This document shows positions 40,944 to 58,086 of a stretch of DNA of 64,000 bases, piece after piece. How positions within the stretch are numbered: the first letter of the stretch is position 1; each line of letters begins with the position of its first letter. The notes under the pieces are model-generated. The model was not told the DNA's origin, did no database searches, and saw only the letters and a program-made list of their open reading frames with translations. Source of the DNA: Streptomyces profundus. GTDB lineage: Bacteria > Actinomycetota > Actinomycetes > Streptomycetales > Streptomycetaceae. Where the stretch lies: assembly GCF_020740535.1 (NCBI RefSeq), contig NZ_CP082362.1, positions 5,206,501-5,270,500 of the forward strand, given 5' to 3'. The position numbers and the translations under genes are program-made.

Positions 40944-40994
40944 GACCAGCAGCGTACGTCCTCCTCCGAAGGGGTATCGTGGACCGCACGGCGG

Positions 40995-41404
40995 ACGAGC
41001 CGGCCGGGCGGTCGCGTTGGGGCTCCCACTGGGAGACCCACCGAGGAACGTCCGGGCTCCACAGGGCAGGGTGGTAGGTAACGCCTACCTGGGGTGACCC
41101 ACGGGACAGTGCCACAGAAAACAAACCGCCGGGGCCGCGCGAGCGGCACCCGGTAAGGGTGAAACGGTGGTGTAAGAGACCACCAGCGCCCAGGGTGACC
41201 TGGGCGGCTCGGTAAACCCCACCCGGAGCAAGGTCAAGAAGGGGCCGCGCCAGCGGCCTCGCGTGAACGCCCGAGGGCTGCCCGCCCGAGTTCACGGGTA
41301 GACCGCTTGAGGGTGATGGCGACATCACCCCTAGATGGATGACCGCCACCCTGGCGGGCCCCGGCCCCCCAGGCACACAGAACCCGGCGTACAGGCCGCC
41401 TCGT
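40995..41404 (+). ncRNA. rnpB: RNase P RNA (bacterial type A)
   Basis: The catalytic RNA of RNase P, about 410 nt. Diagnostic parts are the P4/J region GAGGAACGTCCGGGCTCCAC (41042-41061), GCCACAGAAAACAAACCGCC (41110-41129), GGTAAGGGTGAAACGGTGG (41152-41170), and the closing ACAGAACCCGGCGTACAGGC (41377-41396). P1 is formed by ACGAGCCGGCC at 40995-41005 and GGCCGCCTCGT at 41394-41404. The last 24 bases of the gene are duplicated at 55.2 kb, so the 3' end has been used as an integration site. Confidence 0.95.
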
Positions 41405-41465
41405 CCGTCGCCTCACCGTTCTTCCTGGTCAGAGCGGGTGCGCCGGCCGCGCACCCGCCCCGGGG
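41381..41465 (+). repeat. Left attachment repeat (attL) in rnpB 3' end
   Basis: This is the left copy of the 85-bp direct repeat. It differs from the right copy at 41390, 41415, 41416 and 41423. The longest shared blocks are 24 bp (41391-41414, spanning the rnpB end) and 42 bp (41424-41465). The 24-bp block is the most likely crossover core. Confidence 0.8.
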
Positions 41466-41812
41466 GCAACCCCTGAGTGGATCACCGCGGTCACGTTGAC
41501 CCCACCGACCGCGGTCGGCGGGTGGGCGTAGGTGTCCCAGCTCTCGGAGAACTCCGCATGCCGGGAGAGCGCCTGCACGGTCTTGGGGTCGTGGAAACGG
41601 GTTCTCTCCGGCAGTCCCGCGATCCGCAGGGCCCGGTGCCACCTCTGGTTGAGATCGCTGCGCTGGACCGGACTCCCGAACCGGTTGGTGACCAGCAGCC
41701 CCTCGTCGGGGGCGGCGCCGGAGACACTCAGCTGATCCGCGAGGAAGCGGACCGGCCGTCCCCCGATGTCCGGGTCCACCCACGACTCGGTTATGGGCGC
41801 TGGCCTCATCCC
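41429..41812 (-). pseudogene. C-terminal remnant of a tyrosine integrase
   Basis: About 125 residues in one frame resemble the catalytic end of a phage/AICE integrase: VTNRFGSPVQRSDLNQRWH, ALRIAGLPERTRFHD, then KTVQALSRHAEFSESWDTYA. The stretch that should read LRHTYASLLIAAG between RFHD and KTVQ is deleted, removing the R-H catalytic pair, and the N-terminal two thirds are gone. The tyrosine of DTYAH remains. Its 3' end runs into the left attachment repeat, the usual layout for an integrase that uses an RNA-gene 3' end. Confidence 0.8.
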
Positions 41813-41944
41813 AGCTGCGGAAGGCGGGCCGAGATGCGGGGTGTCGCGGGGTGTGGGACAGGGGCGGGGTGTCGGTGGTTGGGTAGTGGGTGGGGCGGTC
41901 AACTCGTCTTCAGTGCAGTGAGTTCGGTGACGGGGAGGGGCAGA

Positions 41945-43462
41945 GTGGAGCCGTTGCGGGCGGGGGATCCAGCGCGGGTGGGTGGTTTTGTGTTGCGGGG
42001 CCGCTTGGGTGCCGGTGGGATGGGTGAGGTGTTCCTGGGCCGGTCGCCGGGGGGCCGTTTGGTGGCGGTGAAGGTGGTGTATCCGCACTTGGCGGGTCAG
42101 CGGGATTTCCGTGCTCGTTTCGCCCGGGAGGTGGTGGCGGCCGAGGCGGTCAGTGGGGCGTTCACCGCTCCTGTGGTGGCTGCCGGGCCGGACGATGACT
42201 TGCCGTGGATCGCGACCGCCTACATCCCCGGCCCGGACCTGGCCGAGGCGGTAGCCGGGGCCGGCTCGCTGCCGGAGGGTGCGGTGTGGGGGTTGGCGGC
42301 CGGGTTGGTCGAGGCGTTGCAGGCCATCCACGTGAAGGGGCTGCTGCATCGGGATCTGAAGCCGTCGAACGTGCTGCTGGCCGCAGACGGTCCGCGAGTG
42401 ATCGATTTCGGGATCGCCCGCACGATGGAGGGCGCCTCGCTGACGGGGACCGGGATGGTGATCGGCACGCCTGGTTTCATGTCCCCGGAGCAAGCCGAGG
42501 GCGGTCGCGTCGGGCCGGCCAGCGACATCTTCGCGCTCGGAGCGGTCCTCGCCTATGCCGCCAGCGGCACCGAACCCTTCGGGCAGGGCGCGCTCTTGGC
42601 GATCCTGAACCGCGTCGTCAACCAGGACCCGAACCTGAACGCCGTCCACGGTCCACTTCACGACCTGATCGCCGCCTGCCTGGCCAAGAACCCCGATGAA
42701 CGGCCTACCCTTCCTCAGCTGTTGGACCAGGTCACCTCGCAGTGGGCCCCGCCTGACGAAGGCCCTACCGGCGGGTCCCTGTGGCCCATCGCCGTGACCA
42801 CCCTCATCCAACAACGGGCCACCACCCCGTACACCCAGCCTGCGGCCCGGGCCCCGTTCCATGACGCCCCCACCGCGACAGCACCCGCCCCGAGGGAGCT
42901 GACCCGCCGCTTCGAAGAGGCGCTACGCACCGGCGAGGCGGGGGATCATGCTGAGGCGGCGCGGCTCTTGGCCGGGGTTGTTTCCGATCGTGCGCGTGTT
43001 CTCGGGGCTGACCATCCTGACACCCTGCGCGCCCGGTACAACCACGCCTGGTACACGGGGGACATGGGGGCAGACACGGAGGCGGTGCGACTGTTGGCCG
43101 AGCTGGCTGTGGACTACGCGCGCGTGTCGGGTCCTGACCACTCCGACACCCTGCACGCGCGCCGTCTCCATGCCTATGTGCTGGGGCGGGCGGGGGAGCA
43201 TGGGGAAGCGTCCCGGCTGCTGGCTGGCGTCGTCGCGGATTATGAGCGTGTGCTTGGCCTCAGCCACCCCCATGCGCTGACCGCCCGCCATAATCACGCC
43301 TTCGCGCTCGGACGCGCCGGAGAGCCATTGGAAGCGTCCCGGCTGCTCGCCGACCTCATCACGGACTATGAGCGTGTGCTCGGCTCCGACCACCCCCGCA
43401 CCCTGAACGCGCGCGAGGGCTACGACTGGAACCTGCGCCAGTTGAAGAAACGCGGAAAGTGA
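41945..43462 (+). CDS. Serine/threonine protein kinase with C-terminal tetratricopeptide repeats
   Basis: A 505-residue cytosolic kinase. The catalytic domain (about 10-270) has the glycine loop GRLGAGGMGEVFLGRS, VAVKVVYP (Lys), HRDLKPSNVLL, VIDFGIART and GTPGFMSPEQAEG. No membrane helix follows; a Pro/Thr-rich linker leads to four tandem repeats of about 42 residues (A-x-LLAGVVSDRARVLGADHPDT type) similar to kinesin-light-chain TPRs. GTG at 41945 is preceded by GGGGAGGGG. It lies inside the island upstream of cas genes but is separated by pseudogenes, so a direct link with CRISPR is not shown. A perfect 22-bp palindrome (43524-43545) lies about 60 bp downstream. Confidence 0.88.
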   Translation: MEPLRAGDPARVGGFVLRGRLGAGGMGEVFLGRSPGGRLVAVKVVYPHLAGQRDFRARFAREVVAAEAVSGAFTAPVVAAGPDDDLPWIATAYIPGPDLAEAVAGAGSLPEGAVWGLAAGLVEALQAIHVKGLLHRDLKPSNVLLAADGPRVIDFGIARTMEGASLTGTGMVIGTPGFMSPEQAEGGRVGPASDIFALGAVLAYAASGTEPFGQGALLAILNRVVNQDPNLNAVHGPLHDLIAACLAKNPDERPTLPQLLDQVTSQWAPPDEGPTGGSLWPIAVTTLIQQRATTPYTQPAARAPFHDAPTATAPAPRELTRRFEEALRTGEAGDHAEAARLLAGVVSDRARVLGADHPDTLRARYNHAWYTGDMGADTEAVRLLAELAVDYARVSGPDHSDTLHARRLHAYVLGRAGEHGEASRLLAGVVADYERVLGLSHPHALTARHNHAFALGRAGEPLEASRLLADLITDYERVLGSDHPRTLNAREGYDWNLRQLKKRGK

Positions 43463-43523
43463 CCGGGGCTGGCCGCGTTCGCGGGAACGGGCTTGTCAAG
43501 GCGTGGGGAGCAGATCGAGTAGT

Positions 43524-43545
43524 GCCCGGACCGGCCGGTCCGGGC
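43524..43545. terminator. 22-bp perfect palindrome after the kinase gene
   Basis: GCCCGGACCGG followed directly by its reverse complement forms a perfect palindrome 61 bp downstream of the kinase stop. It may be a terminator or a dimeric-protein site. Confidence 0.5.
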
Positions 43546-43576
43546 GACCGCGCACCCGGTCTTCGGTTGCCTGGTC

Positions 43577-44387
43577 TCAGCGACGCCGGACGGGAAGCTC
43601 GGGGCCGGTGACTACGGCTATCTCCCGTGAAGTCACGAGGCTTCCCGTCGCGGTGTCCTGCCCAGCAGTTAATCGCGGAGCGCACCCCGGGCACCAAAGT
43701 CGATCTCCAGCGCCGCCGGGCTCTGACCGCCTCGACCTGGAGCGGACGTCACCCCGGGGGGTGCGCTGGAGAGCTGGGTCAGCGTGGCGCCGGCTCCGGT
43801 GCGCAGGGAGCGGGTGATGGTGAGGACTTCGCGGGTGGATGGAGGCGGCGGCGTCCATGGCCCAGGCGCACAGCTGTCCGTGCCCGGCCTGTTGGGTGAA
43901 TTCCATCGCTTCGGCAGCTGCCTGCTGAAGGACCTGCGCTGTGGCGGCCGGGGAGGACAGGGCCAGTCCGGCGAGTTTCACCGCGTCGCGACGCTTCGCC
44001 TCCGCCACCTCCGTGAAGGTCCGCGAGCCCACGTTATTGCGGGCTGTCTTCCCGTCAGAAAGTCTTCCACCGTCCGGCGCCGGGTCCCAAGGCGAGCGGG
44101 AGGCACCTGCCTCGGTGGGTGGCGAATAGTCGTGGGCGAAGCCGAGTGCGACCGGATGAGTCGCGAACAAGCGGCAGAGCAGGTAGTCCGCGCTCGGGAG
44201 GACGCCGGCCTCCCAGTCCTTCCAAGACCGCTCGGAGAGCCCGACCTTGGCCAAACCCTGGGCTTCGACCAGCTGGTGAGCCTCGGCTACCGCACGAGCG
44301 ATGGCCCAGCCCATCGCCAGGCGGCGACACTTGAGCCGGCGAATGCCCACAGTGCGTCGCTATCGCCTCCGCGATCTCCGTGATCAA
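43577..44387 (-). pseudogene. Frameshifted XRE-type helix-turn-helix regulator
   Basis: Several frames are needed to read this gene. It begins near 44387 (TTG, ITEIAEAIATHCGHS), then shifts frame to RLKCRRLAMGWAIARAVAEA and LGLSERSWKDWEAG-like text, the HTH region of a Streptomyces XRE family. Later comes EAKRRDAVKLAGLALSSPA and a second shift near 43860. No intact protein is possible. It lies between the kinase and cas3 and shows decay of the island's non-CRISPR genes. Confidence 0.65.
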
Positions 44388-44707
44388 GGCGCCCTCTCGC
44401 AGTGACCTCCCGCACGAGGCGTTGTGGACCGGGGTGGATCCGTTCGCCGTCTCGGCTCTCACGTCCTGCGCCCTCCCACAGAGGCGCCCGCTGACAGCGC
44501 CGGGTGCGCGGTCTGGTGCTGACGGTGATCGCTTGCCTACCCCGGGGGACGGCCAAACCCGACAACCAAGGGCGGGGTGACCGCCCGCGGCGGGCGGCCG
44601 GCCCGCCGACGGTGAACGGCGAGACCGAGCCGGACGTGTAACGCGCCTTCCCCCCATCCGCACGCCCCGGGCTCTTGCCCGGTGGGAGAACGAGAGGGAC
44701 ACGCACC
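44388..44707. other. Island spacer without an intact gene
   Basis: This spacer of 320 bp separates the regulator remnant from the hydroxylase remnant. It contains scrambled GC-rich sequence with no credible ORF. GGAGAACGAGAGG at 44685-44697 is the ribosome-binding region of the following remnant. Confidence 0.45.
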
Positions 44708-45010
44708 ATGGAAGACGCACCGCCGACCGTCGCCCTGTCCGGGCAGATCGCCCAGATGGACGGCTTGGACTGGCGGTGATCGAGCGGATGCGACATGGGG
44801 CCCTTACCGCTCCGGCGCCCTGGAAGGCCGCGTACAGCGAGTTCCAGTCCGGTGGCTGGTGGACCACGTCGCTGATGAACGCCTCCGGCGAGGCCGCCGA
44901 TGGCGCCGCCTGCCCGACCGGTCTGCTACAGCGGATGCCGGCGACCGCAGTCCTGTTGGCCGGGCTCGGGCTGTCCTACATGTGGGTGCGGCTCGCGCGG
45001 CTGGCTATAC
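44708..45010 (+). pseudogene. Truncated, frameshifted aspartyl/asparaginyl beta-hydroxylase-like gene
   Basis: The reading begins MEDAPPTVALSGQIAQMDGL at 44708 and hits a stop after 23 codons. In the next frame the protein continues VIERMRHGALTAPAPWKAAY, SEFQSGGWWTTSLMNASGEA, then LLAGLGLSYMWVRLARL, and is lost near 45010. These segments resemble bacterial 2-oxoglutarate-dependent Asp/Asn or proline hydroxylase-like proteins. Only about 100 of 300 residues survive, and all iron ligands are missing. The short first ORF should not be mistaken for a peptide gene. Confidence 0.6.
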
Positions 45011-45096
45011 ACCATCAACAGCCGCTCAAACCTGAGTTTCGGGTGGTCTCCTCAAAGAGCTCATCAGGACCCCTGTGTAGTCGTACAGTTACGCGC

Positions 45097-47406
45097 ATGG
45101 GGGTGGAGGTGAACGGTGAGGAGTTGTACGCGCACAGTCGGTGTGCGGGGTCCGGGGTTCGTCATGGGTTGGCTGAACACCTGCGGGGGACGGCCGCGTT
45201 GGCGGGGCGGTTCGGTGGGGTGTTCGGCGCGGCTGAGCTGGCGGAGTACCTGGCCCTTGTCCACGACGTGGGCAAGGGATGCTGTGCCTGGCAGAACACG
45301 CTGATCAATCACGCGGAGCCCAACGACAAGCCCGTCGGCATCCCGCACAAGGACGCGGGGGCGTGGCTGGCGCAGGAGTACACATCCAAGATGCTCGCGG
45401 CAGTGGTGCACGGGCACCATGGCGGTCTGTCCGAGCGCAACAGGGTCGCGGAAGTCGTGAAGAACGTGCGGTCCGGGACCGACGCCGACGCCAGGAACGC
45501 GCGAGAGTCCGTGGATGCCGTTTCCGCCGTCGTCCCCGAGATCCTTCCCGGTCAACGCCTCGCCCTGCCAGCATGGTTGGGAGCGTTGCCGGCCCGCGAG
45601 CGGGGGCTGGGCAAGGACCTCCTGATCCGGATGCTGTTCAGCTGCCTGGTGGACGCCGACTACCTGGACACGGCCGCCCACTTTGACGGCACGGGGACAC
45701 CGCGCGTCGCGGGAGACGCCGACATGGCCGTGCTCGGTGCTCGCTTCGAGACTCGGCGGGCGGAGTTCCTGGCAGGACGAGAGCCATCGCGTGTCGATGC
45801 CATTCGCAGCGGGGTGTACGAGCAGGCGCTCGCCGCCGCCGAGCGGGAGCCGGGGCTGTATGTGCTCCATGTGCCGACGGGAGGCGGGAAGACGCTGGCC
45901 TCGGCCGGGTTCGCGCTCCGTCATGCCGCCAGGCACCGGATGGGGCGGATCGTGTTCGCCGTTCCGTTCATCAGCATCACCGAGCAGAACGCCGCCGTGT
46001 ACCGCGATCTGCTGGATCCGCACAGGGGCGAGCCCGGCGGTCCGGTGGTTCTTGAGCACCACAGCTCCGCCGACCTGGAGGAGGAAGTCGCCGGCCCCTG
46101 GGCGCGGTTGGCGGCGGAGAACTGGGACGCTCCGGTGGTTGTCACCACGACGGTTCAGTTGTTCCAGTCGTTGTTCTCCCACCGCCCGGCCGCGATGCGG
46201 AAGCTGCATCGGCTGGCCGGATCCGTGATCGTGTTGGACGAAGTGCAGGCGCTTCCGGACCGGTTGCTCGCACCGATCCTGAGCGTTTTGCGCGGGCTGG
46301 TGGACCACTTCGGCGCGTCGGTGGTCCTGGCCTCGGCGACGCAGCCGGAGTTCTGGGCCCGCCCCGAGTGGGACGGTGCCGCCCGTCATCTGGTGGTCGA
46401 CGATGTGTCCACGCTCTTCGACGAGTTGCGTCGGGTGACGTACCACTGGCGGTCGGACGAGGGGGGTTCCTGGGAGACGATCGCCGAGGAGATCCTCGAA
46501 GAGCCGGGTTCTCGGGTGCTGACCGTGGTCAACACGACCCGCGACGCCGCCACGCTCCACCGCCTGCTCGCCGAAGCGCTGGCGCCGGCTGACGATGACT
46601 TGGCGGATGCGGACGAGGCATCCGAACGGCCCATGGTTCTGCATCTGTCGACCAGGATGACGGCCGGGCATCGACGAGAAGTGATCGACCTTATCCGGAA
46701 GCGATTGGCGGAACGACAGCCGACGTTCGTTGTGTCAACAAGTCTGATCGAGGCTGGAGTTGATCTCGACTTTCCGTGCGTCTACCGGGCGGTGGCCCCC
46801 GCAGAGTCCATGCAACAGGCGGCAGGCCGTTGTAACCGGGACGGGCGTGACGACGACGGCAGGGTCGTCATCTTCCGCCCGGCGGAGGGCGGCGACCCGA
46901 AAAGTAAGTCGTACAAAGCGGCAAAGGAGGCGTCCGAACGCTTCTTCGGCCCGGAACTCGCCGCGCCCGATGATCTCGCTGCCCTGTCCTCGTACTACGC
47001 CGAGCGGTACGCGGCGCAGGGGAGCGACGGACGTGCGTTCGGGGAGGAGATCCAGCGGCTGCGGCGAGAGCTGGACTTCCCGGAGGTGGCCAGGTCGTTC
47101 CAGATGATCGACGACGCCTACTCCCAACCCGTGGTCGTGATCCGACCGGAGTTGACCGAGGCGGAGCGCGACGTGATCGAGGCCGATATCAAGAGCCTCG
47201 GCGACCCCTATCCCACGGGCCCGGAGGTATGGCGCCGGCTCCAGCCCCATACGGCCTCGCTGCCGCGCCACGAGGTCCGAGAGGCACTGAACAACCGCCT
47301 CGCCGACCTGGTCGTCGGCGACCTGGTGGTCTGGCGCGGCTTCTACGACCCGCTCCGGGGGTTGGACAGCGAGCGGGTGGAGGACCCGACCGCGTTCCTG
47401 GTCTGA
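45097..47406 (+). CDS. cas3: Type I CRISPR helicase-nuclease Cas3 (I-C)
   Basis: A 769-residue Cas3 with an N-terminal HD nuclease (ALVHDVGKGCCAWQ near 57, VVHGHHGGLSERN near 110, DADYLDTAAHF near 190) and an SF2 helicase (Walker A HVPTGGGKTLASAG near 262, Walker B VLDEVQALPD near 380, motif III ASATQPEF, motif VI QAAGRCNRDGR near 578). It nicks and degrades target DNA after Cascade binding. ATG at 45097 is chosen; TACAGT at 45084-45089 may be a -10 so close that the transcript could be leaderless. It is the first gene of the cas operon. All HD and helicase motifs appear intact. Confidence 0.95.
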   Translation: MGVEVNGEELYAHSRCAGSGVRHGLAEHLRGTAALAGRFGGVFGAAELAEYLALVHDVGKGCCAWQNTLINHAEPNDKPVGIPHKDAGAWLAQEYTSKMLAAVVHGHHGGLSERNRVAEVVKNVRSGTDADARNARESVDAVSAVVPEILPGQRLALPAWLGALPARERGLGKDLLIRMLFSCLVDADYLDTAAHFDGTGTPRVAGDADMAVLGARFETRRAEFLAGREPSRVDAIRSGVYEQALAAAEREPGLYVLHVPTGGGKTLASAGFALRHAARHRMGRIVFAVPFISITEQNAAVYRDLLDPHRGEPGGPVVLEHHSSADLEEEVAGPWARLAAENWDAPVVVTTTVQLFQSLFSHRPAAMRKLHRLAGSVIVLDEVQALPDRLLAPILSVLRGLVDHFGASVVLASATQPEFWARPEWDGAARHLVVDDVSTLFDELRRVTYHWRSDEGGSWETIAEEILEEPGSRVLTVVNTTRDAATLHRLLAEALAPADDDLADADEASERPMVLHLSTRMTAGHRREVIDLIRKRLAERQPTFVVSTSLIEAGVDLDFPCVYRAVAPAESMQQAAGRCNRDGRDDDGRVVIFRPAEGGDPKSKSYKAAKEASERFFGPELAAPDDLAALSSYYAERYAAQGSDGRAFGEEIQRLRRELDFPEVARSFQMIDDAYSQPVVVIRPELTEAERDVIEADIKSLGDPYPTGPEVWRRLQPHTASLPRHEVREALNNRLADLVVGDLVVWRGFYDPLRGLDSERVEDPTAFLV

Positions 47407-47482
47407 CGGGAGTGCCATATGCGGCGCGTGGCGCCCCTTTGTACCCCTCACGGGGGTGATGTATCTCCAAGAAAGGAAACTC

Positions 47483-48256
47483 ATGAGTTCGACGACCGCC
47501 GGTGCGCGGCGGCCCGCGCGGGGGAACGAGGGGTGGGCGTTTCCCGATCTCGTCGTGGAGACGTGGGGGGAGTTGGCGTGCTTCACCCGGCCGGAGTTGA
47601 AGTCGGAACGGGTGAGCTATCCGCTGATGACGCCTTCCGCCGCCGACGGTCTGCTCCAGTCCGTCTTCTGGAAGCCACAGTTCCAGTATGTGATCCGGCG
47701 GATCGAGGTGCTCAGCCCGGTGCGGTGGGCGCGGGTGCGGCGCAACGAGGTCGCGTCCGTGCCGAACGCGTCAACGGTGGCGGCGTTCCAGAAGGACCGG
47801 CGCCGGCGCTATGACGTGGAGGCGGACCGCGATCAGCGCGGCACGACCGCGCTGCAGGACGTGCGGTACCGGATTCACGCCCAGATCGCCGTCTCGGCGA
47901 AGGCGCGGGCCGGTGGCAACGGGTTCCCACCCGCCTCGGAGGAGAAGTACCGGGAGCAGTTGCGGCGGCGGGTCGAGCGCGGAGCGTGCTTCTCGCAACC
48001 GTTCTTCGGCTGCCGAGAGTTCACCGCCTTCTTCGGGCCGGCAACGGATCTGCCGCCGCAGACCGACTGGAACGACGAGTTGGGCGTGATGCTGCACTCC
48101 ATCGCGTACACACCCGAGGGCGAGCGGTATCGGTGGTTCCGCGCCTCGGTGCGTGGGGGTGTCATGGAGGTCGAGCAGCCGTTGCCCGAGGGCGCGGTCG
48201 CCGTGGCCGACCCCCACTGGCGTGCCGACGCGGGCTCAGGTTCGGGCGGGGAGTAG
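47483..48256 (+). CDS. cas5c: Cas5c, crRNA-processing subunit of type I-C Cascade
   Basis: A 257-residue Cas5 of the I-C (Cas5d) type, which in this subtype replaces Cas6 and cuts the repeat stem. Diagnostic segments are VVETWGELACFTRPELKSER, SYPLMTPSAADGLLQSVFWK (the Tyr/Lys/His active-site region) and FFGCREFTAFFGPATD. ATG at 47483 has AAAGGAA upstream; an in-frame upstream ATG lacks one. It is 76 bp after cas3 and 5 bp before cas8c. Confidence 0.94.
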   Translation: MSSTTAGARRPARGNEGWAFPDLVVETWGELACFTRPELKSERVSYPLMTPSAADGLLQSVFWKPQFQYVIRRIEVLSPVRWARVRRNEVASVPNASTVAAFQKDRRRRYDVEADRDQRGTTALQDVRYRIHAQIAVSAKARAGGNGFPPASEEKYREQLRRRVERGACFSQPFFGCREFTAFFGPATDLPPQTDWNDELGVMLHSIAYTPEGERYRWFRASVRGGVMEVEQPLPEGAVAVADPHWRADAGSGSGGE

Positions 48257-48261
48257 CCGAG

Positions 48262-50052
48262 ATGCTGCTGCAACGACTGGGCGAGTACGCCGAGCGGGCC
48301 GCCGAGGATCTGCCCGCCGAGTACCACAGGGCGAAGGTCATCGATCGGGTGCTGCGCCTCTCGGCGGACGGCAGGACCGGCGAGTTGGAGGACCGGCGCA
48401 AGCCGGCGAAGCAACGGGCGGAGGCGCTCGTCGAGTACGTTCCGCACGTTCAGCGATCCGGCGTCAAGGTGCCGCCGTATCTGCTGGTGGACACGGCCGA
48501 GTTCGTTCTCGGCGTGCCCAACGCCAACGGTAGGAACGGGCTGACGGACAAGGAACGGGCCGAGGCCGAACGGCGGCATGCCGCCTACCGTGAACTCGCT
48601 CTGCGCTGGGCCGACTCCGTGCCCGACGACCCCGCCGCGACGGCGCTGCGGACGTATCTGACCGCGCCTGATGTGGCGCGTCCAGCCCTGGACGGTGTCG
48701 GGCACAAGGAGATGGTCGCCGTCCGTGTCGGCACCTGTTGGTTGCACGCCCTCCCCTCGGCGCAGGGGCTCTGGGCCGACGTGGTGCGGGAACGCAAGGG
48801 CGGCAAGAAGGAACGGTCCGGGCTGTGCCTGGTGTGCGGCGAGCATGGCGCGTTGCTCGCCACGATCCCCGAGCCGGTGAAGAAGGGATCGGTGCCGACC
48901 ACCGGCGGCAGCAACGAGGGCCAGCTGGTCTCCATCAACACCGCAGCCCAGGGGCGCAACGGAATCCAGCAGCTCGTCAACACCCCGATCTGCCACCGCT
49001 GCGGCGGTCGAGCCATGGCCGCCCTGAACCATCTGCTCGCCTCACCGACCCAGAGCAGGCGCTTCAAGGACTACGGCACATTCACGTGGTGGACCCGCGA
49101 GGCGGGGGAGGACCCCGACCTCACGCCCACGTTGAACGACCAGCCGGACGAGGCCACCATCGCGCGACTGATCGACAGCATCGACGACCAGCCAACTCCC
49201 CGCGCCGCCGACGGCGTTGACCCCGACGCCTTCCACGGCCTGACCATCGGGCTGAACAACGCGCGGATCGTGGTGCGCGACTGGATCGACGTGCCGGTCC
49301 CCGAGATCAAGCACACCCTCGGGCTCTGGTACCGGCAGCACGGCGTACACGAGGGTTGGAAGCGCCGCATCCGTCATGTGCCCAGATGGCAGATGGCCCT
49401 GTCGTGCGGGCGTTGGGACGGTCAGCGCTATGTGCGGGACAGTGCCCCGATCGGTCTGGAGACGGAGTTGATGTTCTCCGCGCTCCACGGCAGTCGGCTT
49501 CCCGCGCGCGTGCTGCCGCTGCTGGTGCAGCGCATCCACGCCGACCGCAACATCGACGCCCCCCGTGCCGCGCTCATCCGCCTCGCCCTCAACCGAACTG
49601 ACCACTACAGGAAGCCCGAGATGCCCGCCGCCCTCGACGAAACGGACAACCACCCCGTCTATCTGTGGGGCCGGATCTTCGCCGTGCTGGAACAGATCCA
49701 ACGCCTGGCCGTTCCCGGGCTCAACACCAGCCTCCGCGACAAGTACCTGCCGACCGCCGCCGCGGCCCCCGACCCGACGATGACCCAGCTGTTGAAGAAC
49801 GCCAACGGCCATCTCAAGCGGCTCCATCGAGAGAAGCGCGGCGCCGGCATCGCGCTGGAGACCCGGCTGAACGAGTTCCTGGGACGGATGCCGCGCGGCG
49901 CCCTCCCGCAGCATCTGAACCTGATCGAGCAGGGCGACTTTCTCATGGGCTACTACCACCAGCGCCAGGCGGACTTCGAGGCCGCCGCCGAGGCGAAGAC
50001 GTCGGCCAACGACCAGAGCCAAGCGCCCGTGCCTGCCCAGCCCTCGGCGTAA
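48262..50052 (+). CDS. cas8c: Cas8c (Csd1), large subunit of type I-C Cascade
   Basis: A 596-residue protein of the Csd1/Cas8c family that recognises the PAM and, from an internal start, often also yields the small subunit Cas11c. The N-terminus MLLQRLGEYAERAAEDLPAE is typical. A treble-clef-like zinc site is formed by CLVCG (near 188) and CHRCGG (near 243). The C-terminal helical part ends NEFLGRMPRGALPQHLNLIE and QGDFLMGYYHQRQ. ATG at 48262 follows GGGGAGTAGCCGAG. No break is visible. Confidence 0.94.
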   Translation: MLLQRLGEYAERAAEDLPAEYHRAKVIDRVLRLSADGRTGELEDRRKPAKQRAEALVEYVPHVQRSGVKVPPYLLVDTAEFVLGVPNANGRNGLTDKERAEAERRHAAYRELALRWADSVPDDPAATALRTYLTAPDVARPALDGVGHKEMVAVRVGTCWLHALPSAQGLWADVVRERKGGKKERSGLCLVCGEHGALLATIPEPVKKGSVPTTGGSNEGQLVSINTAAQGRNGIQQLVNTPICHRCGGRAMAALNHLLASPTQSRRFKDYGTFTWWTREAGEDPDLTPTLNDQPDEATIARLIDSIDDQPTPRAADGVDPDAFHGLTIGLNNARIVVRDWIDVPVPEIKHTLGLWYRQHGVHEGWKRRIRHVPRWQMALSCGRWDGQRYVRDSAPIGLETELMFSALHGSRLPARVLPLLVQRIHADRNIDAPRAALIRLALNRTDHYRKPEMPAALDETDNHPVYLWGRIFAVLEQIQRLAVPGLNTSLRDKYLPTAAAAPDPTMTQLLKNANGHLKRLHREKRGAGIALETRLNEFLGRMPRGALPQHLNLIEQGDFLMGYYHQRQADFEAAAEAKTSANDQSQAPVPAQPSA

Positions 50053-50100
50053 CCAGCCGTCCTCTCGTCCACCCCACCTTCTCCGAGGAATCGAACTCTC

Positions 50101-51069
50101 ATGACCGACCCGCACCTGGACCCCCAGCGCAAGCACGACTTCGTCCTCCTGATCGAGGCCCTCGACTCCAACCCCAACGGCGACCCGGACAACGGCGGTC
50201 TTCCCCGCACCGATGTGGTCACCGGCCAGGGGCTCATCACGGACGTCGCCATCAAGCGGAAGATCCGCAACACCGTCGCCCTGTTCAACTCGGAGGAGCG
50301 GAGGCCCGGTTACGAGATCTATGTCGAGGCCGGCACCGCGTTGAACGCCCAGCACGAGCGCGCCTATGTGGAGGGCGGTGCGACGGCGAAGGACTCCGCC
50401 CAGCGGTGGATGTGCCAGAACTTCTTCGACGTCCGGATGTTCGGCGCCGTCATGACCACCGGGAAGCGGGAACGCCGGGCCGGCCGCGTCCAGGGGCCCG
50501 TGCAACTCGGCTTCGCCCGCAGCATCGACCCGGTGACCCCGCTCGACATCGGCATCACCCGGGTCACCCCCACCCGGGAGGAGGACCTCGCCGCCTGGAA
50601 CAACCCGCGGCCGGAGGGCGAGTCCGGCAAGGACAAGGGGAAGAAGGAGGTCAACGCCAAGGAGACCGAGATGGGCTCCAAGCACATCGTCCCCTACGGC
50701 CTCTACAGGGGCAGCGGCCACTTCAGCGCCCCGCTCGCCGCGAAGACCGGCGTGACCAGCGACGATCTCGCCATGTTCTGGCGCGCGTTGACCCTGATGT
50801 TCGAGCACGACCGCGCCGCCGCCCGCACCGGGCTTACCCTGCGCGCCCTGCATGTCTTCAGCCATGACGACGCGTTCGGCAGGGTGCCCGCGCACACCCT
50901 CACGGATTTGGTCACGGCCACGCTCCGAGGCACCACGCCAGCCCGGAGCATCACCGACTACGACCTCTCCGACCCCGCAACCGCCGCCCTGCCGAACGGG
51001 GTTGTGCTGACCACCCTCGTCCAGCCCGCTGCCACGCCCGTCCGTCCCACCATCCCGGCGCCCGCGTGA
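50101..51069 (+). CDS. cas7c: Cas7c (Csd2), backbone subunit of type I-C Cascade
   Basis: A 322-residue Cas7 that polymerises along the crRNA. It starts with HDFVLLIEALDSNPNGDPDN, a family hallmark, then TDVAIKRKIRNTVALF, and has MTTGKRERRAGRVQGPVQLG and SKHIVPYGLYRGSGHFSAPL later. ATG at 50101, with CCGAGGAA upstream. Its stop overlaps the cas4 start by four bases, so expression of the backbone and adaptation genes is coupled. Confidence 0.95.
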   Translation: MTDPHLDPQRKHDFVLLIEALDSNPNGDPDNGGLPRTDVVTGQGLITDVAIKRKIRNTVALFNSEERRPGYEIYVEAGTALNAQHERAYVEGGATAKDSAQRWMCQNFFDVRMFGAVMTTGKRERRAGRVQGPVQLGFARSIDPVTPLDIGITRVTPTREEDLAAWNNPRPEGESGKDKGKKEVNAKETEMGSKHIVPYGLYRGSGHFSAPLAAKTGVTSDDLAMFWRALTLMFEHDRAAARTGLTLRALHVFSHDDAFGRVPAHTLTDLVTATLRGTTPARSITDYDLSDPATAALPNGVVLTTLVQPAATPVRPTIPAPA

Positions 51070-51731
51070 CCACCGATCGGGCGGGGGCTCCGCGGGAGGG
51101 GGACCCGATCCAGGTCCCCCTCTCCGCCCTGGAACACTTCGCCTACTGCCCCCGGCAGAGCGGCCTGATCCTGCTGGAGGACGCCTTCGAGGACGACGTC
51201 GCCACCGTGCGCGGCACGCTCCTCCACCAACGCGTCGACACCCCTGGCAACCGGGGCAGGGGCTCCGTTCGCACCCTGCACGCGCTGCCCGTCTGGAACG
51301 ACGACCTCGGCCTGGTCGGCGTCTGCGACGCCGTCGAACTCCACGCCGACGGCAGCGTCCTGCCCGTCGAGCACAAGTCGGGCCGCTACCGCCCCGGCGG
51401 CCCGGCCGACCTCCAGGTGGCGGGGCAGGCCATGTGCCTGGAGGCCATGTTCCACACCACGATCGAACAGGCCGCGATCTACTCGGCCACCGACCGCCGA
51501 CGTCACCAGATCACCGTGGATGCGCCCCTGCGCGAACAGGTGATGAACGTGACCGAGGCGGTTCGGCAGATGATCACCTCGGCGAGCCTGCCGTCCCCGG
51601 TCACCGACGGCCGCTGCCGCCGCTGCTCGATGGTCGACTCCTGTATGCCGCGCGTCCTCGCCGACGACCGCCGCTACCGGCAGGGCCTCCGGGACCTCTA
51701 CCGCACCACCCCCGAACCGGAGAACGTGTGA
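51066..51731 (+). CDS. cas4: Cas4 adaptation nuclease
   Basis: A 221-residue RecB-family exonuclease that trims prespacers and selects PAM-containing ends. The four Fe-S cysteines are visible in FAYCPRQSGLILLEDAF and, at the C-terminus, CRRCSMVDSC. Catalytic residues lie in GVCDAVELH (Asp), LPVEHKSGRYRPG (Glu-x-Lys) and QAAIYS (QxxxY). GTG at 51066 overlaps the cas7 stop (GTGA), and its own stop overlaps the cas1 start. Confidence 0.94.
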   Translation: MTTDRAGAPREGDPIQVPLSALEHFAYCPRQSGLILLEDAFEDDVATVRGTLLHQRVDTPGNRGRGSVRTLHALPVWNDDLGLVGVCDAVELHADGSVLPVEHKSGRYRPGGPADLQVAGQAMCLEAMFHTTIEQAAIYSATDRRRHQITVDAPLREQVMNVTEAVRQMITSASLPSPVTDGRCRRCSMVDSCMPRVLADDRRYRQGLRDLYRTTPEPENV

Positions 51732-52765
51732 GCCTCGAACTCCTCAACACCCTCTACGTCCAGACCCAGGGCGCGGACCTCCGTCTGGAGGAGGACTCCG
51801 TCCGCGTCCGCCTCCCCGAGGCCACCGCGCGCCGCGTCCTGCCGTTACGCCGGATCGACGCCATCGTGGTCTACGGACACGTCAACCTCTCCACCGAACT
51901 GATCACCCGCTGCGCCCAGGACGCCCGTTCCATCACCTGGATGAGCGGCGGTGGACGGTTCCTCGGCCGTCTCGACGGCGCCGTACGCGGCAACGTCCTC
52001 CTCCGTCAGGCACAACACCGCGCGTTGGCCGACGAGTCGGTGAGCCTGGAGATCGCCCGCAACGTCGTCGCCGGCAAGATCCGCAACAGCCGCTGGATCA
52101 TTCTCCGGACCGCGCGCGACGCGGCGCCGCCCGCGCGGGAGGAGATGCGCACGGTGGCCGCGACGCTGGCCGAGAAGATCGACACCGTCGCCTCGGCCGC
52201 GGACGTCGACACCCTCCGGGGCATCGAAGGCGACTCGGCCCGCCTGCACTTCGCCGCGTTCCGCCACGCGCTGCGACCGGCGGACGGCATCCCCCCTTTC
52301 GAACGCCGAGTCCGCCGGCCACCCACCGACCCCGTCAACGCGCTGCTCTCCTACCTGTACGGAATGGTGCGCGGCATGGTCCACGGGGCGGCGGAACAGG
52401 TCGGCCTCGACCCGTATGTCGGCTACCTCCACGGCATCCGTCCGGCGAAACCCGGCCTCGTCCTGGACCTGATGGAGGAATTCCGCCCCGTCCTCGCCGA
52501 CCGGCTGGCCCTCACCCTCCTCAACCGCCGTCAGCTGCGCGCCGAGCACTTCGAGGAACTGGCGGGAGGCGCCGTCCAGTTGACGGAGGACGGCAGGGCC
52601 GTGGTCATCCGCGAGTGGCAGGAAGCGCGCCAGCAACTCTGGGAACACGGTCTCGCCGGCCGCTCCGTCCCCGCCGGGCTCCTCCCGGTCATGCAGGCCC
52701 GCCTCCTCGCCCGCCATCTGCGCGGCGACCTCCCCGGCTACCTGCCGTGGAAGGTGACGGCGTAA
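51728..52765 (+). CDS. cas1: Cas1 integrase, contains a TTA codon
   Basis: A 345-residue Cas1 that integrates spacers at the leader-repeat junction. Catalytic Glu lies in LRGIEGDSARLHF; His and Asp lie in VGYLHGIRPAKPGLVLDLME and EEFRPVLADRLAL. GTG at 51728 overlaps the cas4 stop. Codon 40 is TTA (51845-51847), rare in Streptomyces and read only by the bldA tRNA, so adaptation may be limited to late growth. The stop overlaps the cas2 start (TAATG). Confidence 0.95.
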   Translation: MSLELLNTLYVQTQGADLRLEEDSVRVRLPEATARRVLPLRRIDAIVVYGHVNLSTELITRCAQDARSITWMSGGGRFLGRLDGAVRGNVLLRQAQHRALADESVSLEIARNVVAGKIRNSRWIILRTARDAAPPAREEMRTVAATLAEKIDTVASAADVDTLRGIEGDSARLHFAAFRHALRPADGIPPFERRVRRPPTDPVNALLSYLYGMVRGMVHGAAEQVGLDPYVGYLHGIRPAKPGLVLDLMEEFRPVLADRLALTLLNRRQLRAEHFEELAGGAVQLTEDGRAVVIREWQEARQQLWEHGLAGRSVPAGLLPVMQARLLARHLRGDLPGYLPWKVTA

Positions 52766-53055
52766 TGGACCTGCTGCTCACCTACGACGTGGACACGACG
52801 AACGCGGACGGCGCGCGGCGACTGCGCCGCGTCGCGAAGCTGTGCGAGGGCTACGGCCTCCGGGTGCAGAAGTCCGTCTTCGAGATCGTCACCGACGAGG
52901 CCGACCTGCTCCGCCTCCTGGCCCGCATCGACGACATCATCAACGCGGAACGCGACAGCATCCGCATCTACCGCCTCCCCGCAGGCGGCCTCGCCGACGT
53001 CCGAACCCTCGGCATCGCGCAGGTGCAGTCCCACCGGGACGACCTCGTCCTGTGA
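52765..53055 (+). CDS. cas2: Cas2 adaptation protein
   Basis: A 96-residue ferredoxin-fold protein that bridges Cas1 dimers during spacer capture. It begins MDLLLTYDVDTTNADGARRL, with the conserved Asp in YDV, followed by VAKLCEGYGLRVQKSVFEIV and DSIRIYRLPAGGLADVRTLG. ATG at 52765 overlaps the cas1 stop. It is the last cas gene; the array A leader starts immediately after. Confidence 0.95.
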   Translation: MDLLLTYDVDTTNADGARRLRRVAKLCEGYGLRVQKSVFEIVTDEADLLRLLARIDDIINAERDSIRIYRLPAGGLADVRTLGIAQVQSHRDDLVL

Positions 53056-53208
53056 ACCACGGGGATCTGTGCGCTTGAGGTTCGGAACCCCAAGTACACA
53101 CGCGGCCTGCGGGTCGCACCGAAGAGAAAAGTCTGGGATGGGATTGATGTCGGGTGTGTTGGGTGTAGTGCTTCGCTCACCTTTCGTCATCACCACAGCT
53201 CAGATGCA
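53056..53208 (+). promoter_or_regulatory. Leader of CRISPR array A
   Basis: A leader between cas2 and the first repeat. Its core, 53079-53150 (starts GGTTCGGAACCCCAAG and contains GCGGGTCGCACCGAAGA), is closely matched by 56895-56966 before array B. In both leaders the core begins exactly 130 bp before the first repeat position. GGTTC-G-GAACC forms a small inverted repeat. It should hold the array promoter and Cas1-Cas2 docking signals. Confidence 0.8.
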
Positions 53209-53861
53209 GTGGCGGTCACCCTCCGGGCGGCCGAGGTGGCGGTCGTTTTCGTACGCCTCCGTCAGGCTGTAGGTGTTGGGGGTGGCGGTCACCCTCCGGG
53301 GCGGCCGAGGTGGCGGTCGTCCTCCGGGACGGCCGAGGATCGCAACGACCGGGACACCGGCGAGGTGATCGCCGGCCCGCCGGTGGCGGTCGTCCTCCGG
53401 GACGGCCGAGGATCGCAACTACGAAGGAGAAGAACAAGCAAGCAAGCGCGCCGGACGTGGCGGTCGTCCTCCGGGACGGCCGAGGATCGCAACTTTCTAG
53501 ACGGCTGGGGATCGGTCAGGCCCGGGAGGTGGCGGTCGTCCTCCGGGACGGCCGAGGTTCGCAACCCCCGGCCCCTGTCAACGGCCCCCACCCCGGGCAG
53601 GTGTGGCGGTCGTCCTCCGGGACGGCCGAGGTTCGCAACTCTTCCAAACAGGTCACGGTGATCTGGCGCTTGTGCCGAGTGGCGGTCGTCCTCCGGGACG
53701 GCCGAGGTTCGCAACGCCATGTTGGGCCTCGCCCCGGACAGCACCGCGAGGTGGCGGTCGTCCTCCGGGACGGCCGAGGATCGCAACGCGATCTACGGAA
53801 CGCTCTGTCACATCTGCGGTCATGGTGGCGGTCGTCCTCCGGGAGGGCCGAGGGGGGCAAG
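53209..53861 (+). CRISPR. CRISPR array A (type I-C), leader end damaged
   Basis: The 37-nt repeat (GTGGCGGTCGTCCTCCGGGA, then CGGCCGAGGATCGCAAC) starts at 53310, 53383, 53457, 53529, 53603, 53679 and 53751. A degenerate last copy is at 53825-53861. There are seven spacers of 35-39 nt. Three repeats (53529, 53603, 53679) have AGGTTCGCAAC at the end. Leader-proximal units are broken: a mutated repeat at 53209-53245, a 36-nt spacer, and a 28-nt truncated repeat at 53282-53309 that runs directly into the first good repeat. Peptides read through the array are not genes. Confidence 0.97.
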
Positions 53862-53934
53862 GGGATGAGGGGCTACTTACCGCAGCCGCTTGCTGGGTGG
53901 TCGGTGGGCTGCTTGCGGCTTGGTCTTCGCTTGC

Positions 53935-54610
53935 TCATCTGGTCTCGGTGCGCTCTTGGGCCCCAGGGCGCGGGTCGCCGTTGTCAGGCGTAGGTGGATG
54001 GATGGCGCGGCGGAGGTGGTGTGCTTCGGGGGTGTGGGTTGCGGTGGCGGCGTTGGTGAGGTCGTTTTCGAGGGTGATGGCGCGGTTGAGGGTGTTTTCG
54101 AGGAGGCCGATCAGTCCGGGTCTTGGGGCGTCGGGGAGGGCCCGGGGGCCGAGGACCTGGTGGGGCGGTGTGCAGAATTTTGCACGGTTGGGCTGGGCGC
54201 GGACGGAGGGAGGGACGCTGCGGTCACGATCTGGCCGACGAGGTGGGCGGTGAGGCGTTGGCTCTCCGCTCGGTGCGGGTGCGCAGTTGTTGGTGGAGGT
54301 CGACGGCGGTGTCGGGGGAGTGGCGGGCAAGGGGGAGGGGGTTGCAGGTTTGTCGAGGTGGTGGTGGAGGCGTTCGGCGGGGGGCCATTCCTCGATGAGT
54401 TGGTAGCCGGCGCGTCTGCTGATCTCCCAGCGCTCCTGGAGGTACTCCTCGAAGGTTTCGTGGCTGTGGCGGTAGAGGCGTCGGTCGCGGAGGGTCGAGG
54501 GTGCCGGTCGCGTCGGTGGTTTCGGGGTGGGGGATGTGGTCGGGAGTGAGGGTGGTGTCGGGTTGGCGGCGGCGGGCTCGGAGGTCGGCGGTGCGGTCGG
54601 GGGCGGTCAT
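53935..54610 (-). pseudogene. ParB/HTH-like partition gene, frameshifted
   Basis: Read on the minus strand, the gene starts MTAPDRTADLRARRRQPDTT at 54610, overlapping the ParA stop (ATGA). It then needs a frame change to continue as ETFEEYLQERWEISRRAGYQ and LIEEWPPAERLHHHLDK, a helix-turn-helix segment common in plasmid/AICE regulatory or ParB-like proteins. A further shift leads to a basic Pro-rich tail, GLIGLLENTLNRAITLENDL, and the stop at 53935. It is broken. Confidence 0.6.
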
Positions 54611-55071
54611 CGCAGGAGCCCTCGGTCCAGCAGTTCGGTGACGAGCTCGTCGGAGGCGGAGCCGGTGGCCTTGACGGGTTCGAGCATGGACTGGGCGTAG
54701 CGCTGGCGGATGGGGATGCTGGTGGTGAGAACGTTCCAGCCGTCATCTTCGAGGTAGCGGCGCCTTGGAGGGCGAGGTCGGTGACGCGGTGCTCCTCGGC
54801 GTGGGCGCAGTCGACGATGCCCAGTTGGCCGGGGGTGGGGGTCGGGGGCACGTTCTTCTGGAACTGCGGGTCCGGTTGCTGGTGGATGGGGAAGGGGAAG
54901 CCGCCGGATGCGGCGTCCCATTCGGCGAGCTGGCGGCCTGTGGTCGGACTCGAAGGCGACGACGGGGTAGCCGCGTTCGTGGAGGGCGTGGGCTTGCCAG
55001 GCGACCGAGGTGGTCTTGCCAGCGGTGCGGGGGCTGAGGTGGGTGATGATCACGTGTTGGCGCCTTCTCAT
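54607..55071 (-). pseudogene. ParA-like partition ATPase, frameshifted
   Basis: It opens with a deviant Walker A (VIITHLSPRTAGKTTSVAWQ) followed by AHALHERGYPVVAFESDH, a ParA/Soj beginning. The next part is only readable in other frames (GQLGIVDCAHAEEHRVTDLA), then the first frame resumes with RYLEDDGWNVLTTSIPIRQR and VTELLDRGLLR. Two compensating shifts make it non-functional. With the ParB-like remnant it marks the right side of the island as plasmid-derived. Confidence 0.65.
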
Positions 55072-55202
55072 GGTTCACGCCGGGTGATCAACTCAGAGGC
55101 TGTCGGGGGGTGGGTGCGGGGACGAATCGGGGGCGGAAAGAGCTGGTTCGCTCTGACTGCCTTGGACTGCGCGTCTCCGCAGGTCAGATGGGGGCGAGGG
55201 GA

Positions 55203-55287
55203 AAACCCGGCGGACAGGCCGCCTCGTCCGTCGCCTCGTCGTTCTCCCTGGTCAGAGCGGGTGCGCCGGCCGCGCACCCGCCCCGGG
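55203..55287 (+). repeat. Right attachment repeat (attR)
   Basis: The right copy of the 85-bp repeat is the displaced former rnpB 3' end, with four mismatches to the left copy. Similarity stops abruptly at both sides. Confidence 0.8.
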
Positions 55288-55317
55288 GCACCGATCTTGA
55301 GGGACGCGCCGGGGAGT

Positions 55318-55446
55318 CCTGGTCGATGACGTCGTCCGCTCCGGCAACCAACTGTTGGCGATGAGCCGGATACTGAGGGTCGCCGGAGCCTCGGTCGCCG
55401 ACGCGCTGTGCGTGCTGGAATGGCCGCTCGGCGGGCGACAGCTACT
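55318..55446 (+). pseudogene. Phosphoribosyltransferase C-terminal remnant
   Basis: One frame reads VLVDDVVRSGNQLLAMSRIL then RVAGASVADALCVLEWPLGG, the PRPP-binding loop and following helix of an orotate-phosphoribosyltransferase-like protein. There is no start, and the N-terminal domain is absent; the text begins some 30 bp after the right attachment repeat. The stretch after 55446 up to the RNA ligase stop contains nothing recognisable. Confidence 0.6.
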
Positions 55447-55565
55447 GAGTCAGCCGAGGTCACACCCCCCGCCGCCCGCCCCGGCCGCGAACCGCTCCGA
55501 CGCACCACCACCTGAACCGGATCTCAAACACGCTCTGGGGGAGGCCAACAGATCGTCAGGCCCTC

Positions 55566-56603
55566 TCAGGGTCTCCTCTGTTTGCCCGGAGGACGGCGGT
55601 CCTCGGCGTCGAAGGCCGCCAGTACGTGTGCGCCAGGTAGAAGCGCCCGTCCCAGGGAGCCCAGGAGTCCGGCCTCCAGACCACCCAGCGAGTCGGCGAG
55701 TTCTTCCGCGACGTCCCAGCTGATCTCCTGAGCCACGGCTTCCAGGGGAGCGCGAAGGCCCAGTTTGCTGACCGCTGCCGCCGCACGAGCGGGGGTGAGG
55801 AGCGCCGCAGCGTGGGCCAGAATCCAAGGGGGAACTCCGGCGGCTCCCTGGAGTGGTGGGAGATACGGACGTGAGCCGTTGAACCGTACGTCCTCAGCGA
55901 AGGACGTCTGCTTCACCTTGGCCACCGGGCGTGTGTCCGCGGATCCGGCCTCTGGCCATTCGCCGGCCGGCTTGAGGACGTAGCCTTCGGCGAGGTTGTC
56001 CGGCAGGTCGGGCAGCCCGAAGAGGGCTGGAACCCGGGTGGGGAAGGCAACCGGCAGGTCATGGAGCTTGGCGAGCGTTCCCTGCCTGAGCACGGGAGGG
56101 CAGATGAGTCCTGCGGTCGCGGCGGCTTTGCGCAGGGCACGATCAGAAATCCAACGGCGTCCCTGGGCGTTCTCGACCTGCGCGTCGAACGGCAGCCAGT
56201 GCAGGCCGGGCGCGTACCACACACCGGTCTGGACCGGCTCGGCGTCGGCAGCGGCGGGGGCGTCTGCGTGTGGGTAGCATCCGCCGGCCAGCTCACCGTA
56301 GATCGTCACCACTGCGGTGTCGCCCCACGCACTGCGGAGTACGGAGGCGAAGCGGGCAGCTGCCACAAGTAACTCCGGCCAGACCCTGCTCATGCCGAAG
56401 AAGTCATCCATCGCTTCGTCGCCCAGCAGCTCACGCCGTTTGGCCGGATGAACGCCTGTGCCGTCGCACACCACCAAGAGGTGCGCTCCGTGCACCTTTT
56501 CCGTCGCGACCCACTCCCGGATTCCGGAGGTACCGAGCCTTCTTCCCTCAGAAATCTTGGGATACGGCCGAAGTGCGGGACCTTGAGAGGCAGCGTCAAA
56601 CAT
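55566..56603 (-). CDS. Rnl2-like RNA ligase family protein
   Basis: A 345-residue nucleotidyltransferase. Motif I is TEKVHGAHLLVV with Lys36 as the predicted AMP-accepting lysine (KxHG as in T4 Rnl2). Further motifs are VTIYGELAGGCY (motif III), AEGYVLKPAGEWP (motif IV) and VAKVKQTSFAED (motif V). About 110 helical residues follow (EISWDVAEELADSLGGLEAG). ATG at 56603. Such ligases seal nicked or broken RNA. It lies between the island's right end and CRISPR array B, with no partner such as a kinase-phosphatase next to it. Function in this organism is unknown. Confidence 0.82.
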   Translation of the reverse strand: MFDAASQGPALRPYPKISEGRRLGTSGIREWVATEKVHGAHLLVVCDGTGVHPAKRRELLGDEAMDDFFGMSRVWPELLVAAARFASVLRSAWGDTAVVTIYGELAGGCYPHADAPAAADAEPVQTGVWYAPGLHWLPFDAQVENAQGRRWISDRALRKAAATAGLICPPVLRQGTLAKLHDLPVAFPTRVPALFGLPDLPDNLAEGYVLKPAGEWPEAGSADTRPVAKVKQTSFAEDVRFNGSRPYLPPLQGAAGVPPWILAHAAALLTPARAAAAVSKLGLRAPLEAVAQEISWDVAEELADSLGGLEAGLLGSLGRALLPGAHVLAAFDAEDRRPPGKQRRP

Positions 56604-56894
56604 GGTGTGGAGCGTGGCTGTTGTTCGTGGCCTGTGCAAGGAGATTTGTCCCGTGCCGCGGCAGTCAGGGTTTGCCCGGTAGCGAGCGTCCTGGTGCGTG
56701 CGATCAGCTGGCAGCCGCATGTAGGTGTCCTGGCTGGGCTTTCGGCTAACGCGGCGAGTGCGCGCGCCAGGCGGCGAGCGGGGCAAACCCTGCCTGACGC
56801 ACCCCACTCGTTCGGAACGACCACGTATAGTTCGATCGGGCCTGCGCGATGGCTCGTCTATCGTTCAACTGGACCCTGGACCCTGGACCATGGG
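56604..56894. other. Spacer between RNA ligase and leader B with a 12-bp inverted repeat
   Basis: This region contains the RNA ligase promoter and no gene. CAGGGTTTGCCC at 56666-56677 and GGGCAAACCCTG at 56781-56792 are a perfect inverted pair about 100 bp apart. GGACCCTGGACCCTGGACC at 56873-56891 is a short tandem repeat just before the leader. Confidence 0.5.
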
Positions 56895-57880: not shown

Positions 57881-58086
57881 CTCCGGGGTGGGTGGGGCTG
57901 AGGCGGCCGACGGTCGCGCGTCGGGTGGTCAACTCGGGGGCGTCGTGTTGGCCGGCGGGGGCAGCGAGCTGTGCTGTTTTCGCAGGTCAGGTCGGTGGAG
58001 GGGAGAGCCCGGCGGTCGGGTCGTCTTGTCGTCGTGGTGTATGACCCCGTCGCGGGGGCTCCGGACACGGAGCCACCGCGTGGGGG

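Follow-up and report, generated by a model that had tools for sequence, protein, structure and literature searches.

A decayed island at the 3' end of rnpB in Streptomyces profundus that includes a type I-C CRISPR-Cas system, and rnpB as an integration target in the genus

We analyzed a 64,000-nt stretch of the chromosome of Streptomyces profundus (NZ_CP082362.1, positions 5,206,501 to 5,270,500; hereafter the window), in which the RNase P RNA gene rnpB, a single-copy ribozyme gene needed universally, is followed by a type I-C CRISPR-Cas system. The region downstream of rnpB is a real, decayed island. It is probable that the 3' end of rnpB served as the bacterial attachment site (attB) of two related elements inserted in tandem, both now decayed, the younger of which carries the type I-C genes. 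In the genus as a whole, the 3' end of rnpB is a much-used integration site. Coordinates are collected in Table 1; genomes, contigs and loci other than those of S. profundus are designated by G, C and L numbers, respectively.

An earlier note on this DNA, made from the sequence alone, had described an 85-bp direct repeat with 81 identities and one copy over the 3' end of rnpB, an integrase remnant at the left copy, ParA/ParB remnants at the right copy and a complete type I-C system between them. All of these were recovered. The two 85-nt copies (95% identity) align with four mismatches, and the left one begins within the 3' end of rnpB, as delimited by the RF00010 match. When rnpB was used as a query against its own 7.65-Mb chromosome, it matched itself and only one other place, the right repeat copy (E 4.4e-32). 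Direct attachment (att) repeats, one of them overlapping the 3' end of the target gene, are the arrangement of an integrative element that uses the 3' end of an RNA gene. Judging by the full-length Rfam match (275 bits), the target RNA would remain complete after integration.

The integrase remnant was located in a minus-strand frame (41429-41815) and not in ORF (open reading frame) 41331-41783; the latter is in the wrong frame, lacks a Pfam match and, as a query, matched only 4 of 295 genomes, S. profundus included. Against PF00589 the remnant scores 18 bits (E 0.0026), below the 27.1-bit cut-off. It aligns to residues 318-409 of the 437-aa integrase of genome G263 (PF00589 47 bits), with 16 residues missing, including the H-x-x-K motif, and because this gap falls on the H-x-x-K box the window integrase is predicted to be dead. 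An integrase gene therefore adjoins the att site in the window as a remnant only; an intact counterpart, a 431-aa ORF (PF00589 49 bits) and the same integrase as that of G211, is found in Streptomyces albipurpureus (L148, 17491-18786). At the other end of the 85-bp repeat pair, one ORF gave a weak ParA-type match (PF01656 E 0.058), and tblastx pieces in broken frames matched ParA and the following ORF of G338, which belong to another rnpB element; there, as in the window, ParA/ParB sit inward of the distal att copy. A further ParA match, in G132, had no rnpB copy in the 20-kb region around it.

The integrase remnant was searched against 295 Streptomyces genomes, of which 85 had a match at E ≤ 0.001. 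Twelve genomes besides S. profundus had a match at E ≤ 1e-6, and in five of the twelve an integrase of the same subfamily lies beside or between copies of the rnpB 3' end on the same contig: (i) directly after rnpB in G211 and G093, as seen by an Rfam search of 12 loci, (ii) between two copies in G263 and G236, and (iii) ending about 130 nt ahead of a copy in G316. By chance, an integrase within 11 kb of an rnpB copy would be expected in about 0.07 genomes. Intact integrases beside rnpB in other strains, which the earlier note had suggested looking for, thus exist.

An occupied and an empty site could also be compared directly. In genome G015, two copies of CCCGGCGTACAGCCCGACTCGTCTG enclose 5,979 bp; in G004, rnpB is followed by its own terminator. 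The flanks of G015 align to G004 (98% on the rnpB side, 88% beyond) and share exactly those 25 nt, so that the insertion in G015 duplicated the last 25 nt of rnpB.

The distribution of such copies was surveyed in 392 genomes of the genus with a 25-nt rnpB 3'-end pattern, allowing up to two mismatches; most copies were seen as pattern matches only. The pattern matched in 373 genomes, and at least two copies were present in 118, S. profundus included, compared to two matches in all for the pattern read backward. Among the pairs listed, the 22 neighboring same-contig pairs no more than 200 kb apart, spaced by 1.4-127 kb, are without exception direct repeats; of five more same-contig pairs, which lie at great distances, four are oppositely oriented. 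The proposal that rnpB is an integration site is therefore upheld, by the linked integrases in 5 of 12 genomes and by the G015/G004 pair, whereas its supposed rarity as a target is not: 118 of 392 genomes with at least two copies, set against the control, make rnpB a frequent target.

These data also bear on the possibility that the 85-bp repeat arose by chance or as a recombinational copy of the rnpB terminator, with no integrase involved. A GC-rich hairpin does lie within the repeat, and conservation is highest in the repeat's tail. However, there is an integrase remnant at one end and a ParA remnant at the other, the same architecture recurs in other genomes, and neither the G015/G004 pair nor the direct orientation of 22 of 22 listed pairs fits such an origin, which we regard as extremely improbable.

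Two observations on individual genomes may be added. In G165, G258, G353 and G114, a single copy of the rnpB 3' end lies several megabases from the other and is inverted relative to it, as though it belonged to the opposite chromosome arm. The element at rnpB in G093 (L092/L093, G093:C1 6571000-6610999) measures 28.8 kb and encodes a TrwC relaxase and a lantibiotic dehydratase, a possible biosynthetic cargo.

In the window, the earlier note had set the end of the island at 55287. The right border of the foreign DNA is instead probably near 58,035, because CRISPR array 2, which lies beyond the right repeat copy, is of the same repeat type as array 1, because a degenerate third att copy follows it (core at ~58,008), and because the RNA ligase gene has a low GC content at third codon positions (GC3), 0.73, whereas genes to its right lie at 0.94-0.98 and 30 called ORFs to the left of rnpB average 0.913. 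The segment 57860-58120 aligned to the middle att region with a score of 101, compared to null maxima of 75 (1000 window segments) and 78 (500 shuffles). The null segments were drawn outside 40,900-58,200; they replaced an unrestricted null of 300 random window segments, which had reached 340, presumably via overlap with the att copies or arrays. The upstream arm of the third copy alone scored above all 1000 controls. An arm motif, CAGGTCA, is present upstream of both second copies in the window and, among nine other second copies tested, of four (one of the nine is mostly N at that place); no rnpB gene out of 57 has it, and it occurs in 49 of 5000 random 45-mers. The esterase of the right flank matched strongly once in S. 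harbinensis and once in S. radicis, off the rnpB contig in both, and only weakly in S. triticirhizae, and the right border can therefore not be placed by synteny.

A single element from 41,381 to 55,288, bounded on the right by the 85-bp repeat and with the RNA ligase gene and array 2 as native chromosome, would agree with this repeat being by far the best one and with the wide occurrence of RNA-ligase relatives in Streptomyces. We consider it unlikely, since it leaves aside the shared repeat type of the two arrays, the third att-like copy with its arm motif and the GC3 of the RNA ligase gene. Moreover, the tail of the middle att copy matches the integrase-side tail of attL, as expected if the middle copy doubles as attL for another element. 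If two elements lie in tandem, the predicted empty site would link rnpB to the DNA beyond ~58,035, not to that beyond 55287.

The tandem arrangement could have arisen as follows. The 3' end of rnpB would act as attB for tyrosine integrases of Streptomyces integrative elements, each element bringing an rnpB 3' end of its own and a short hairpin, so that RNase P RNA and a terminator-like hairpin would be restored on insertion. Folding of the 70 nt beyond each att end gave a hairpin in 7 of 7 cases, from which we infer that the elements may bring a terminator along. The older element, now short and distal (about 55,204-58,035), would have entered rnpB first; it would comprise the RNA ligase gene, array 2 and the degenerate right att. 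A related, younger element (41,381-55,288), with the integrase remnant, the kinase gene, the I-C cas operon, array 1 and the ParA/ParB remnants, would then have inserted into the regenerated site, and the middle copy would thus combine the right end of the younger element with the integrase-side tail of the older one. Subsequent loss of the catalytic box from the integrase would have left an island incapable of self-excision; in the best model, both elements are now immobile by themselves. G338, in which one contig holds rnpB plus two additional copies and a window-related ParA lies inside the middle copy, shows a series of this kind.

The corresponding site was also analyzed in close relatives. 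Among the relatives found, the nearest is S. triticirhizae NEAU-YY642 (81% at a neighboring protein); its DNA matches the window through 41,405, where the match ends. In this strain (L223/L224, G319:C68), a second exact 23-nt copy lies 38.2 kb downstream, an integrase-like ORF is located just ahead of it (PF00589 23.6 bits, below the cut-off), and the element at rnpB has a terminase match. S. triticirhizae thus carries a different, phage-like element at the same rnpB site. The DNA downstream of rnpB differs among the three nearest relatives examined, and that of S. harbinensis has no counterpart near the window in the S. profundus genome.

Several results weigh against the interpretation given above. 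No empty site was found in S. profundus or a close relative; the site of S. triticirhizae is occupied by the different element. Seven of the 12 integrase relatives are unlinked to an rnpB copy on their own contigs, several of which are short. In at least three of the seven (loci L059, L064, L065), the same CTGGTCAGAGCG-type tail stands behind a different sequence, which suggests that the integrase subfamily also uses, or sits at, other places. Inspection of the G015 insert by eye, with ORFs not subjected to a profile scan, recognized no integrase. The core-and-tail half of the third att copy is weak by itself, as 5 of 1000 random segments score equally, and the arm motif occurs in only 6 of 11 second copies, both window copies counted. 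The GC3 of the cas genes (0.84-0.94; 0.88-0.94 for cas5-cas1) is not clearly foreign. Finally, the Pfam-scanned ORFs of the window include no conjugation gene, no FtsK/SpoIIIE-type Tra gene and no Rep gene, as would be found in an actinomycete integrative and conjugative element (AICE); Tra and Rep genes may have been lost from the window element.

The earlier note had also held that the island, with the CRISPR-Cas operon as its cargo, explains how this strain acquired type I-C. The set is complete, cas3-cas5c-cas8c-cas7c-cas4-cas1-cas2 plus an array, with matches to all seven PADLOC models (Cas3c, Cas5c, Cas8c, Cas7c, Cas4c, Cas1c, Cas2c). Related loci are found on plasmids of S. microflavus (NZ_CP054927.1) and S. 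cyaneofuscatus (NZ_CP108862.1), which share the Cas7c, Cas4, Cas1c and Cas2 region at about 74% DNA identity (17% of the query), whereas that of the window lies in a chromosomal block at rnpB. The existence of plasmid-borne relatives, together with the ParA/ParB remnants, makes it plausible that type I-C arrived with the element. The proposed acquisition is thus likely; it is unproven insofar as array 2 lies outside the 85-bp repeats, the GC3 values are unremarkable and the site in S. triticirhizae holds a different element.

Type I-C is rare in the genus: PF09709 (Cas8c) was found above its cut-off in 13 of 392 genomes, S. profundus included. Fourteen other genomes have any PF09709 match, and two of them have a copy of the rnpB 3' end within 10 kb, G263 and G338 (contig C2, 6.8 kb). 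The chance expectation for this proximity is 0.07, with a probability of about 0.002 for two or more, for a distance that was chosen post hoc. In G263 (L246 6230-10100), a truncated cas8c runs into a DDE transposase frame, beside cas5 and an IS110-type transposase; the truncated cas8c and cas5 begin 1.4 kb past the distal rnpB 3'-end copy. This I-C locus, just beyond the copy, appears to be decaying.

In both G263 and G338, the I-C genes (a remnant in the former) are on the far side of the att copy, outside the interval from rnpB to the copy. This position, the plasmid-borne relatives and the GC3 of the cas genes would also suit a system already in place downstream of rnpB, or acquired by some other route such as a plasmid, that was later bracketed by small elements inserting around it. 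Such a history seems rather unlikely in view of the rarity of type I-C and of the differing DNA downstream of rnpB in the three relatives. In addition, 80 named loci around cobC/rnpB contained no cas gene (57 of them include the rnpB end and extend only a few kb beyond it, and 23 do not show that end), and neither did 20 further 20-kb regions around cobC/rnpB. Arrival of type I-C with an rnpB element is therefore retained as the likely explanation.

The window resembles AICEs and other elements at the 3' ends of tRNA and transfer-messenger RNA genes, as described in PMC3218068, in having an integrase beside an RNA gene, direct att repeats, a restored 3' end and a possible tandem array. It differs in its target, rnpB, and in the lack of a recognized Tra or Rep gene. 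According to the same paper, the vast majority of AICEs with a tyrosine recombinase use tRNA genes, the pSLS subfamily being excepted. It also describes a CRISPR-Cas system within another actinobacterial integrative element, the integrative and conjugative element Fcci3350 of Frankia; that system was judged likely not functional (PMC3218068). A full-text literature search, with most subscription journals outside its coverage, yielded no paper recognized as describing rnpB as an integration site, and the terms rnpB, RNase P and ribonuclease P are absent from two papers on mycobacterial prophages (PMC10654092, PMC8092301).

We tentatively suggest, as a possibility somewhat short of probable, that the 3' end of rnpB ranks among the main integration hot spots of Streptomyces, so far without having been described as one, and that several integrase families use it. 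The elements concerned, prophage-like as well as plasmid-like, would each bring an rnpB 3' end and hairpin of their own, and rare type I-C systems would recur at this place (the window, G263, G338). Elements inserting at so frequent a site must keep RNase P RNA intact. If the suggestion is correct, rnpB would be a predictable place for mobile cargo such as defense systems and biosynthetic genes, as well as a usable site for integrating vectors in Streptomyces, and rnpB elements would offer rare type I-C systems a route of spread.

Table 1. Features of the S. profundus window at and downstream of rnpB (window coordinates).
Feature	Position	Strand	Evidence
rnpB, encoding class A RNase P RNA; target gene with regenerated 3' end	40996..41407	+	Rfam RF00010 275 bits, model 1-367/367
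attL: rnpB 3' end and integrase-side tail with terminator-like hairpin	41381..41465	+	85-nt repeat 81/85; 10-bp stem on folding
Tyrosine integrase remnant, catalytic box deleted	41429..41815	-	PF00589 E 0.0026; aligns to intact G263 and G211 integrases with 16-aa gap
Ser/Thr protein kinase and TPR ORF; kinase start ~41,866 or later	41477..43462	+	PF00069 127 bits, TPR; PADLOC PD-T4-6-type kinase models
cas3c ORF, true start further in	44776..47406	+	PADLOC Cas3c 612 bits, from residue 112
cas5c	47456..48256	+	PF09704; PADLOC Cas5c
cas8c/csd1 ORF, model match from residue ~93	47986..50052	+	PF09709 324 bits; PADLOC Cas8c
cas7c/csd2	50101..51069	+	PF05107 283 bits; PADLOC Cas7c
cas4	51066..51731	+	PADLOC Cas4c 229 bits
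cas1 ORF, model match from residue ~102	51434..52765	+	PADLOC Cas1c 421 bits
cas2 ORF, model match from residue 51	52615..53055	+	PADLOC Cas2c 106 bits
CRISPR array 1, 37-nt repeat, within the 85-bp repeats	53294..53861	+	
ParA and next ParB-like ORF, frame-broken remnants	54111..55071	-	tblastx pieces vs right end of G338 element; weak PF01656
Middle att copy: proposed attR of proximal element fused to integrase-side tail of distal element	55204..55288	+	81/85 repeat; CAGGTCA arm motif upstream
RNA ligase family gene; part of the distal element in the tandem model	55566..56807	-	PF09414 57.8 bits; TIGR02307 79.6 bits, below its cut-off
CRISPR array 2, beyond the 85-bp repeats, with the repeat type of array 1	57025..57880	+	
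Degenerate third att copy (core ~58,008), then strong hairpin; probable true right border	57860..58085	+	alignment score 101; arm motif; hairpin

No terminase, portal or capsid gene, as would mark a prophage, was found in the Pfam-scanned window ORFs. The spacers of array 1 had no match in a phage collection, and those of array 2 had two weak matches to Gordonia phages (E 2e-3 and 2e-2), which were taken as chance. The best PADLOC matches of the kinase/TPR ORF are kinases of the PD-T4-6 type, and a defense gene beside the CRISPR system is possible, these kinase models being unspecific. The interval between the kinase gene and cas3 (43440-44420) holds broken minus-strand frames, the two longest ORFs of which have no Pfam match; judged by eye, they are probably decayed regulator-like genes. 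The repeat of array 2, of the same type as that of array 1, differs from it consistently by one base.

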